DNA of 30,871 nucleotides, from positions 1 through 30,871 of the IMG/VR virus record IMGVR_UViG_3300027816_000293. The stretch is one strand, 5' to 3'. Below, piece by piece: positions 3,596-20,799 of this stretch; position 1 is the first letter of the stretch, and every line of letters begins with the position of its first letter. The notes below the pieces were generated by a model. It had not been told where the DNA came from, made no database searches, and worked only from the letters and a program-made list of their open reading frames with translations. The translations under genes and the position numbers were made by a program. The stretch is from a virus.

Positions 3596-4018
3596 ATGGC
3601 AAAAGTAGGAAGACCAAGAAACTTAGATAGCCCCGAACAACTTTACGAACTATTCGAAAGATATAAAACAGACGTAAAGGCGAACCCAAGAATAAAAAGC
3701 GTATTCGGAGGAAAGGAATTTGAAGAGAGAGCAGAACCTTTAGAAAGACCATTAACAATGGAAGGCTTTGAGGTTTTTTGTTGGGACGAAGTAGGTCAAG
3801 TAGAGCAATATTTTAAAAACATAGATAAAAGATACGAGGAATTTATACCTATCTGCTTACGTATACGCAAAGAAATCCGTAGAGACCAAATAGAAGGAGG
3901 TATGGTAGGACAGTACAATCCAAGCATTACACAGCGTTTAAACAACTTAAAAGAACAAGTTGAACAAACAAATATTGAACAACCTTTATTCAAATTAGAT
4001 GCTGACGATAACCAATGA
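3596..4018 (+). CDS. terS: Terminase small subunit
   Basis: A 140-residue protein that would recognise phage DNA and hand it to the large subunit for packaging. It matches the Bacteroidetes phage small-terminase pattern: a basic start (MAKVGRPRNLDSPEQLYELFERYK), the core PLTMEGFEVFCWDEVG with YFKNIDKRYEEFIPICLRIRKEIRRDQIEGGMVGQYNPSITQRLNNL in about residues 52-120, and an acidic, variable C-terminus. The first half supplies an HTH-like DNA-binding fold and the middle a helical oligomerisation part. It overlaps the methyltransferase by 20 bases. A methyltransferase separates it from the large subunit, which is unusual. Confidence 0.85.
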   Translation: MAKVGRPRNLDSPEQLYELFERYKTDVKANPRIKSVFGGKEFEERAEPLERPLTMEGFEVFCWDEVGQVEQYFKNIDKRYEEFIPICLRIRKEIRRDQIEGGMVGQYNPSITQRLNNLKEQVEQTNIEQPLFKLDADDNQ

Positions 4019-4646
4019 AGATAACATGGAGCTAATGGCTCGTTATCCTGACAACTATTTTGATTTGGCTATTGTTGACCCGCCTTATGGGATTGATATT
4101 GCGGAAAAACTTGCAAATGGATGGGTGAGTAAAGCAGGAGGAACAAAGTTTGAGGCAAAGGACTGGGATAAATATACGCCTACTCAGGAATATTGGGATG
4201 AACTATTTAGGGTATCTAAAAATCAAATCGTTTGGGGCGGGAACTACTTTATGAGTAAAATACAAAGAGATAGCCCTTGTTGGATATTTTGGGATAAAAA
4301 TAATGGTGATAGTTTATTTGCTGATGGCGAAATAGCTTGGACTTCATTTGATAGCCCTGTAAGATTAGCAAAAATACATTGGTGCGGAAGTGCAGCAAAA
4401 CACGAAACAGGGCAAAATAAAATACACCCAACCCAAAAGCCAACTAAACTTTACAAATGGCTATTAGATAAATACGCAAAGCAAGGAGATAAAATTTTAG
4501 ATACACATCTTGGCTCAGGAAGTATTGCAATAGCGTGCCATGATTACGGCTTTGATTTAACAGCATGCGAACTTGACAAAGAATATTTTGATAAAGCAAT
4601 GCAAAGAATAAATAACCAAACAGCACAAACTAAATTATTTATATGA
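3999..4646 (+). CDS. DNA N6-adenine methyltransferase (beta class)
   Basis: A 215-residue methyltransferase of the N6/N4 family, which moves a methyl group from S-adenosylmethionine to a base in DNA. The catalytic motif DPPYG is at residues 27-31. The HPTQKP motif is at 143-148, and the cofactor motif DTHLGSGS at 168-175 is followed by ELD at 191-193. Catalytic motif before cofactor motif is the beta-class order; DPPY favours adenine as target. The ATG at 3999 is supported because the first residues (ITNEDNMELMARYPDNYFDLAIVDPPYG) match the family's usual N-terminus. It probably protects phage DNA from host restriction or marks DNA for packaging. Target sequence unknown; no partner nuclease is present. 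Confidence 0.88.
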   Translation: MLTITNEDNMELMARYPDNYFDLAIVDPPYGIDIAEKLANGWVSKAGGTKFEAKDWDKYTPTQEYWDELFRVSKNQIVWGGNYFMSKIQRDSPCWIFWDKNNGDSLFADGEIAWTSFDSPVRLAKIHWCGSAAKHETGQNKIHPTQKPTKLYKWLLDKYAKQGDKILDTHLGSGSIAIACHDYGFDLTACELDKEYFDKAMQRINNQTAQTKLFI

Positions 4647-5842
4647 TAATAACAACAGCAATAAGGAAGATTAACGCCCTAAAAAAACGGATAAAAATTA
4701 TCCAGGGCGGAACTTCCGCTCTTTATCCCCCTATGAATTAAGTAGTAGGGGGAGACAATGCAGGTAAAACTTACGGAATTTTGCCCGTGTTAATTACAAA
4801 GGCTGCTACTTATTCAGGAATGGAGATTAGTGTAGTTGCGGAATCAATACCACATTTAAGACGAGGTGCGTTAAAAGACTTTCTAAAAATTATGAAAGAG
4901 ACGGGACGTTACTTCGATGATAGGTTTAATAAAACACTTTTACGTTATGAATTTGCTAACGGCAGTTTTATCGAGTTTTTTTCGGCTGATGATAGTTCTA
5001 AGTTACGGGGTGCTCGTCGTGACATTCTCTATATTAATGAGTGCAACAATATATCTTTTGAGTCCTATAACGAATTGGCTATTAGAACGAAAAAAGAAGT
5101 CTTCTTAGACTTTAATCCTGCTAACGAATTTTGGGTGCATACGGAACTAAAAGACGAACCCGACTCAGAGTTTATAATACTTACCTACAAGGATAATGAA
5201 GCCTTAGATAACTCAATAGTTGAGCAAATAGAAAAGAATCGTTTAAAAGCTGAAACAAGTTCTTATTGGGCTAATTGGTGGCGTGTTTATGGATTAGGTG
5301 AAATAGGAATGCTTGAGGGGGTTATATTTAGCAACTGGAAACAAATCGACCAGTTACCGAGTAATGCTCGTTTAGTGGGTATTGGATTAGACTTTGGTTA
5401 CACGAACGACCCTACTTCTGCAATAGAAATTTACAATTATAACGGAACACGAATCCTCAACGAATTAGTTTACCAAACAGGAATGTTAAACAGCGATATA
5501 GCTAAAAGACTTCCAAAAAACGTAGTAGTGTACGCTGATAGTTCAGAACCTAAAAGCATTGATGAAATAAGACGCTACGGAATAACAATTAAAGGCGTAA
5601 CAAAAGGCAAAGACTCAATAAATTACGGAATTGATGTTATGCAACAACAGGAATATTTAGTAACTTCAAACAGCGTTAATTTAATCAAAGAGTTAAGGGC
5701 GTATTGTTGGGACGTAGACAAAGCAGGAACCAGATTGAACAAACCTATTGACACAAATAACCACGCTATCGACGCGCTGAGATACCACGAAATGGAAACA
5801 CTCGGACTCAAAAGAAATTACGGCACATATAATATACGTTAA
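4643..5842 (+). CDS. terL: Terminase large subunit, interrupted in the Walker A motif
   Basis: The packaging motor: an ATPase and nuclease that pumps DNA into proheads and cuts it. Counting from ATG 4643, the N-terminus reads RIKIIQGGTSA, then TAA at 4739-4741 stops the frame; it reopens as VVGGDNAGKTYGILPVLI. The frame is the same on both sides, so 42 extra bases sit inside the P-loop. Past it everything is intact: Walker B DILYINECN (5021-5047), nuclease acids in LDFGYTNDP (Asp at 5390), VYADSSEP and NHAIDALRY (Asp at 5771). The first in-frame starts beyond the stop (TTG 4781, ATG 4820) lack Walker A. Either recoding joins the two parts, or the gene is dead, or the sequence is wrong here. 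It overlaps the methyltransferase by ATGA. Confidence 0.85.
4721..4762 (+). other. 42-nt in-frame segment with hairpin and stop inside terL
   Basis: Removing 42 bases in register (4706-4747, 4721-4762 or any window between) restores a standard P-loop, GGTSAGKT or GGDNAGKT. The segment holds a perfect 8-bp inverted repeat, TCCCCCTA (4726-4733) with TAGGGGGA (4746-4753), around a 12-nt loop that contains the TAA stop (4739-4741). Codons GGA at 4709-4711 and GGA at 4751-4753 are identical and exactly 42 bases apart; GGC/GGG and GCT/GCA match as Gly and Ala. That arrangement resembles a translational bypass element, but recombination or assembly error would look similar. Confidence 0.7.
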
Positions 5843-20379: not shown

Positions 20380-20799
20380 ATGCATGAAGTATGGAAGCCA
20401 ATTAAATCGTATGATGGCTATTTTGAAGTAAGTAATTTAGGTAGAGTTCGAAGTATTACAAGAAAAATAGAAAGAACAGACCCAAAAAAAATGACAGAAA
20501 AAAGATTATTTACTTATCATGGTAAATTAGTTTCATTTTGGATTACTAAAAAAGGTTATTTGAGATTAGCAATAGCAAAAGACGGAATACAAAGAAAACA
20601 TTTAGTTCATAGATTAGTTGCTGATGCTTTTATAGAAAATCCATTAAATAAAGAGCAAGTAAACCATATTAATGGAATTAAAAGTGATAATAGAGTTGAA
20701 AATTTAGAATGGGTAACAAATTATGAAAATTTTTCTCATTCTGTGTTAATGGGAAAGCAAAAGCATATTAAAGACTATACTAAATATATAGCTCTATGA
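20380..20799 (+). CDS. HNH homing endonuclease with NUMOD4 domain
   Basis: A 139-residue free-standing endonuclease. NUMOD4 (DNA-binding) at about residues 4-30 (VWKPIKSYDGYFEVSNLGRVRSI) is followed by the HNH nuclease at about 84-125 (HRLVADAFIENPLNKEQVNHINGIKSDNRVENLEWVTNYEN), with the expected H...N...N spacing. Such proteins cut genomes lacking the gene and spread by repair. It is more AT-rich than its neighbours and lacks the AAACACG motif found elsewhere, as expected of a recent arrival. It sits between the connector and a fibre gene, four bases from the connector's stop. Confidence 0.85.
   Translation: MHEVWKPIKSYDGYFEVSNLGRVRSITRKIERTDPKKMTEKRLFTYHGKLVSFWITKKGYLRLAIAKDGIQRKHLVHRLVADAFIENPLNKEQVNHINGIKSDNRVENLEWVTNYENFSHSVLMGKQKHIKDYTKYIAL

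Follow-up and report, generated by a model that had tools for sequence, protein, structure and literature searches.

The large terminase subunit gene (terL) of this virus is interrupted, in the middle of the sequence that encodes its ATP-binding Walker A motif (P-loop), by a 42-nucleotide (nt) insert that ribosomes probably jump over: on the basis of comparative sequence analyses, we give a probability of roughly 0.8 to the reading that this insert represents a mobile element for programmed translational bypass, linked to homing endonucleases and working like the gene 60/mobA pair of phage T4. We infer that the segment is skipped at the translation step. It also appears quite likely that a widespread family of such mobile bypass elements exists in phages related to Bacteroidota phages, with many invasions of the ATP-binding motif in two or more terminase families, and with a shared organization in which the jump would start at GCU or GCC and resume mostly at GCA, with a fixed distance from take-off to hairpin and a free landing distance. 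A first-pass annotation of this DNA had already suggested a small bypass element resembling that of gene 60 in an essential phage gene, and this is now the best-supported reading. The literature that we searched, which covers few subscription journals, yielded no earlier account of an element of this kind.

An insert in the P-loop of phage terminase genes

The window, meaning the whole stretch of DNA that we analysed, is a virus record of 30,871 bases. Its terL gene spans positions 4643-5842 on the plus strand, as do all the terL features described below, and was identified through PF04466/PF17288 and the PHROGs terminase large subunit; its best cultured-phage matches are Flavobacterium and Bacteroides phages, with at most ~53% identity. 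An N6_N4 methyltransferase-like gene (3999-4646) separates the small terminase gene from the large one and shares four bases with the start of terL.

From ATG 4643, the frame reads IIQGGTSA and then LYPPMN before meeting a TAA (4739-4741) located in the loop of a hairpin, beyond which the same frame translates into VVGGDNAGKTYGILPVLI. This is what the first-pass annotation had described, and the inverted repeat that it had placed around the stop (4726-4733/4746-4753) and the GGA codons that it had noticed at 4709 and 4751 are also present. The first part of terL (MIITTAIRKINALKKRIKIIQGGTSA, 4643-4720) corresponds to its first 26 codons, runs up to GGTSA with GCU (4718-4720) as its last codon, and is homologous to the uninterrupted N-terminus of relatives without insert. 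Following the 42-base insert (4721-4762), the gene is unbroken from GKTYGILPVLI onward to 5842, and this second part (GKTYGILPVLI...NIR, 4763-5842) includes the remainder of the Walker A motif, the Walker B motif and the RNase H-like nuclease domain, as supported by PF17288 and PF04466. When GCU is joined to the base that follows GCA (ending at 4762), the PF04466 match starts at profile position 1: the downstream part taken by itself scores 36.9 bits over 66-188, and the hop product 51.7 bits over 1-188. A comparison with terL genes of relatives showed that 74 homologues that lack the insert encode an uninterrupted protein reading QGG(T/S)(S/A)A(G/S/A)KT.

The 32-nt core of the insert has exact matches in 10 other viral contigs, which is far beyond chance, and further searches based on looser patterns and on a covariance model brought to 24 the number of IMG/VR contigs, besides the window, that carry the insert at the same Walker A site, always in a terminase P-loop; these come from 22 metagenomes and give 20 distinct sequences. 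Fourteen members fall in the same terL family as the window (family A), and the other six (L102, L124, L128, L157, L176 and L186) in a family B whose terminase aligns to the window terL at 22% identity over 100 residues only. The insert has the same position in both families, after an Ala codon and before the first Gly/Ser codon of the end of the P-loop. No cultured phage carrying the element was found at the DNA level, and one scan of host genome contigs returned a chance match only. Matches to the loop motif outside terminases (L098, L099, L103, L104, L105, L187, L188 and L192) were rejected as chance, with no Ala/P-loop context, and antisense matches of the covariance model were explained by the symmetry of the hairpin. 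The L104 match (position 1333, reverse strand) is an intergenic CCCCGG-TGAATAAAGTAG-CCGGGG hairpin upstream of another terminase-like ORF, which was judged to be there by chance, in a curious position.

A dead terL gene, an assembly artefact or a strain chimera would also fit with the frame-0 stop that cuts TerL at 32 amino acids (aa), and the contig of one relative (L092) shows a visible chimera further downstream. The first-pass annotation had listed a dead gene and a misassembly among its alternatives, and neither stood up to the comparison: the same insert is found in 24 further contigs (25 with the window, for 22 metagenomes), downstream ORFs are intact (357-400 aa where the contig is free of chimerism and of sufficient length), downstream TerL sequences are under purifying selection (median pN/pS ~0.2 in both families) and the hairpin displays compensatory changes. 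Moreover, a search for a second terminase gave none in the records covered, of which several are ~30 kb long, and each searched record had one element. This explanation is thus hardly credible. In L092, terL is joined to unrelated antisense sequence ~500 bases downstream of the hairpin, in what appears to be an assembly chimera; its close relative L193 has an intact gene.

Anatomy of the insert and reading-frame logic

Alignment of the 20 distinct members revealed a common plan: a stem-loop, an Ala codon GCU/GCC (the putative take-off codon), 6 nt, a CCCCC/GGGGG hairpin, 7-10 nt and an Ala codon GCN (the putative landing codon). In the window, the insert comprises the 6-nt spacer, a hairpin at 4727-4752 (CCCCCTA, a TGAATTAAGTAG loop and TAGGGGG, with an eighth pair U4726-A4753), a 3' spacer and the landing codon GCA (4760-4762). 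In the general layout of the hairpin, the 5' arm is CCCCC followed by two variable bases, the loop has 12 bases (13 in one member), and the 3' arm is made of two complementary bases and GGGGG. Three of the eight stem pairs vary, all three with two-sided changes (13 double-change cells), a level of covariation that was reached in 0/500 shuffles and in none of the slid controls. The TGAATTAAGTAG loop is almost invariant in family A; since the loops of family B are different, down to TTATTTAATTAG, the loop sequence is not strictly required. While the distance between the take-off codon and the hairpin is fixed at 6 nt in 20/20 members, the distance between the hairpin and the landing codon varies from 7 to 10 nt, giving gaps that measure 42 (n=10), 43 (n=4), 44 (n=4) or 45 nt (n=2) with the landing codon included. 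The earlier remark that 42 is a multiple of three is thus right for the window without being general.

The first-pass annotation had also proposed that the GGA codons at 4709 and 4751 could be a matched pair for take-off and landing. The principle of matched codons holds, but this pair does not: it is GGU/GGU in L091 and GGG/GGU in L093, and it is out of register in L092, L094 and L101. The pair that is kept is Ala GCU 4718/GCA 4760, found as GCU/GCC plus GCN in 20/20 members, with the same amino acid and the same first two bases (GC) on the two sides in every case and an identical triplet in 4/20. Landing codons mostly end in A and take-off codons in U or C. At the take-off position, GCU is found in 14/14 family A carriers compared to 34/74 non-carriers, and its counterpart GCC in 6/6 family B carriers compared to 4/56 non-carriers. 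Joining GC(U/C) to GCN restores GGTSA[GS]KT or GGAAGGGK[ST] in all 20 members, whatever the length or the frame of the gap.

Every member also has a strong stem-loop within the coding sequence just upstream of the gap, whose last base is base -1 of the take-off codon. In the window, it is located at 4665-4717 and consists of helices P1 (4665-4669/4713-4717), P2 (4675-4680/4704-4709) and P3 (4689-4694/4698-4703). Its minimum free energy ranges from -14.5 to -22.8 kcal/mol in 13 carriers compared to -1.9 to -10.7 kcal/mol in the 61 family A non-carriers, from which it is absent (p = 2e-8), and its last base has a pairing probability of 0.93 in carriers versus 0.15 in non-carriers. This stem-loop outfolds all 300 synonymous recodings in 11/13 carriers, and in family A 4/17 of its pairs show compensatory changes while six more show one-sided changes that preserve pairing. 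The upstream 60 bases of the window, L085, L087 and L089 are near copies of each other, so that these four do not count as independent evidence for the stem-loop. The stem-loops of L101/L191 and of family B are unrelated in sequence and have an identical end point, and family B carriers fold better upstream than 48 non-carriers (p = 1.5e-4). Considering the window alone, a 146-nt region folds at -45.5 kcal/mol compared to a shuffled mean of -28.9 kcal/mol (z = -4.4; 0/200 shuffles as low). No nascent-peptide signal like that of gene 60 was identified, the upstream peptide of carriers being not clearly different from that of non-carriers, and the window does not encode a tRNA that could be a helper.

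In the window, the gap is divisible by three and the GGDNAGKT that follows the stop resembles a P-loop, which would be compatible with UAA readthrough, one of the alternatives of the first-pass annotation, or else with a frameshift within the gap or re-initiation past it. Such mechanisms are, however, incompatible with other members of the family. First, 8/20 members have a 43- or 44-nt gap that places the downstream part in another frame. Second, a stop codon of the resumption frame is found directly 5' of the landing GCN in L101, L191, L157 and L186, so that a ribosome cannot enter the resumption frame upstream of the landing codon. Third, L191, L124, L128 and L186 have lost the in-frame TAA and have no frame-0 stop in their gaps. 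Finally, 17/20 members have no start-like codon that could be used for re-initiation in the interval from the last stop to the P-loop. Because of these observations, readthrough, frameshifting and re-initiation are, for all practical purposes, excluded. The frame of the gap and its stops are not under selection, since L092 and L193 are near-identical locally with gaps that differ by 1 nt, since the TAA kept in L101 is lost in L191, and since the gaps of L124, L128 and L186 are stop-free. Two options remain: a jump that resumes at GCN or an RNA from which the segment is removed.

Probable mobility of the insert and rival excision models

An HNH_3 gene is located at most 900 bases upstream of terL in 9/20 carriers compared to 1/112 non-carriers (p = 6e-8), and those of family A also carry NUMOD4. 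In L089, L091 and L096, the endonuclease gene is preceded by what is left of the native terL 5' end and followed by a second complete terL 5' end, with the stem-loop and the insert; the three remnants end at an identical junction, after AA(A/G)AT(A/T)AT and just before the P-loop CAGGG. The remnant of L089 is preceded by a gene with the same end as the methyltransferase-like gene of the window. No endonuclease gene was found beside the window's own terL, where this adenine methyltransferase-like gene (3999-4646) is found instead. Since L124, L128 and L157 have none nearby either, the gap can be maintained, or can spread, in the absence of an endonuclease. A NUMOD4/HNH_3 homing endonuclease gene does exist elsewhere in the window, at 20380-20799, among structural genes and distant from terL. 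HNH endonuclease genes were also seen directly upstream of insert-free terminases in L005 and L097, possibly reflecting a related homing system with an unoccupied or different site.

To explain the distribution of the insert on the two gene trees, no fewer than 11 changes are needed in one (81 sequences, 13 of them carriers) and 5 in the other (56 sequences, 6 of them carriers); such counts cannot tell gain from loss. Such a scattered presence could also be obtained if the segment was a micro mobile element excised from the DNA in a fraction of the genomes. This is very improbable, considering that the segment is the consensus in all carrier contigs and that non-carriers are not clean excision products, as their surrounding silent sites differ from those of carriers.

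The only serious rival to a bypass is an excision from the RNA: the 42-45 nt would be cut from the mRNA as a minimal self-splicing or enzyme-spliced intron spreading with the nearby homing endonuclease, with the 5' stem-loop and the hairpin acting as a recognition or catalytic structure. A small excision reaction would predict most of the observed pattern. The position in a conserved active-site motif, the exact recovery of the frame whatever the gap length, the covariation that spans gap and exon, and the linkage to homing endonucleases are all intron-like. We nevertheless consider it unlikely. A search of six carriers against Rfam gave no gathering-level match to a known RNA family, intron and ribozyme families included, with lesser matches attributed to chance, and found no group I/II intron catalytic core in these carriers of 42-45 nt inserts; to our knowledge, self-splicing introns are all far longer than ~40 nt. 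In addition, the flanking Ala codons are kept while the 3' spacer diverges, and these codons are needed for re-pairing but not for splicing.

Proposed mechanism and comparison with known bypass systems

By analogy with T4 gene 60, a translational bypass may proceed as follows. With GCU in the P site, the hairpin that starts six bases further would block or occupy the A site and stall the ribosome. The codon-anticodon pairing of the Ala peptidyl-tRNA would then break and the ribosome would slide across the hairpin segment, while the 5' stem-loop, which would be unable to close fully under the ribosome, would re-fold behind it and thereby drive and rectify forward sliding. The Ala-tRNA would finally re-pair with GCA (4760) and translation would restart at GGU AAA ACU, giving KIIQGGTSA-GKTYGILPVL. 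This proposed mechanism agrees with the spacing, which is fixed on the 5' side of the hairpin and loose on its 3' side. Should GCA be the preferred codon of the tRNA involved, which is a guess, departure would be weak and landing strong. A hop from GCU or GCC to GCA would be easiest with a single tRNA-Ala(UGC) for both codons. As for mobility, the terL P-loop may well be the cleavage target of the linked HNH homing endonuclease: an insert that interrupts this target would shield its carrier from cutting, and bypass would keep the essential gene active. The cassette that spreads would then combine the endonuclease with the duplicate terL 5' end and the gap, and the window copy would have lost its endonuclease or never have acquired one with it.

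Efficient programmed bypassing in bacteria and phages is essentially documented for T4 gene 60 alone, and the paucity of occurrences has been noted in a review (PMC5009743). If our reading is true, the element described here would be the second phage bypass system for which an anatomy is defined and the first to show natural diversity. Its 20 natural variants with covarying structures, together with empty-site relatives, would open several questions to direct testing: the signals that bypassing needs, the extent to which its codons have to match, the need for a nascent peptide, and the origin and spread of bypass sequences. It would also mean that selfish DNA, even with no recognisable intron, can survive where an essential motor protein is most conserved in its motifs, and that such terminases will be missed or truncated by gene callers.

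Other proposed cases show partial likeness. The bypass segments of Magnusiomyces capitatus mitochondria are also short inserts skipped at translation, with codons that are not always perfectly matched, but there are 81 of them per genome in many genes compared to one per genome here, and their bypassing seems independent of mRNA context whereas an upstream structure is conserved here (PMC5009743). Bypassing has been proposed for another terminase gene, where it is thought to involve slow UUA decoding, with no inserted element being skipped. The 29-nt hop proposed for an adhesin gene of Prevotella loescheii is also short and also found in Bacteroidota, but it is a single report without follow-up and with no known homing endonuclease or family (PMC5009743).

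The closest parallel is T4 gene 60, which is expressed by programmed translational bypassing and has the mobA HNH homing endonuclease gene upstream (PMC3014915, PMC5009743, PMC11194080); our comparison rests on its described features rather than on a gap-to-gap sequence alignment. The likeness extends beyond what the first-pass annotation had proposed, to the stem-loop in the coding sequence just 5' of take-off, to an adjacent HNH homing endonuclease inserted upstream within the same gene (in 9/20 carriers here) and to mobility. In both systems, an essential phage gene has a short gap that is, or here would be, left untranslated, the frame need not be kept, re-pairing takes place, or would take place, at a like codon, and a gap stem-loop is positioned by the A site. 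We do not claim membership in the T4 system because our element has no adjacent stop, because its Ala codons are often mismatched at the third base, and because it is found in many phages. The stop is next to the take-off codon in T4, whereas the codon after take-off is a sense codon in 20/20 members, in agreement with the difference that had been pointed out for the window. The matched codons encode Gly in T4 and Ala, often with an unlike third base, here; the T4 gap stem-loop includes the take-off codon, while the hairpin starts 6 nt after it here; and the gap measures 50 nt in T4 compared to 42-45 nt here. Finally, the interrupted gene encodes a topoisomerase in the single phage T4, and terminases of two gene families in many phages here.
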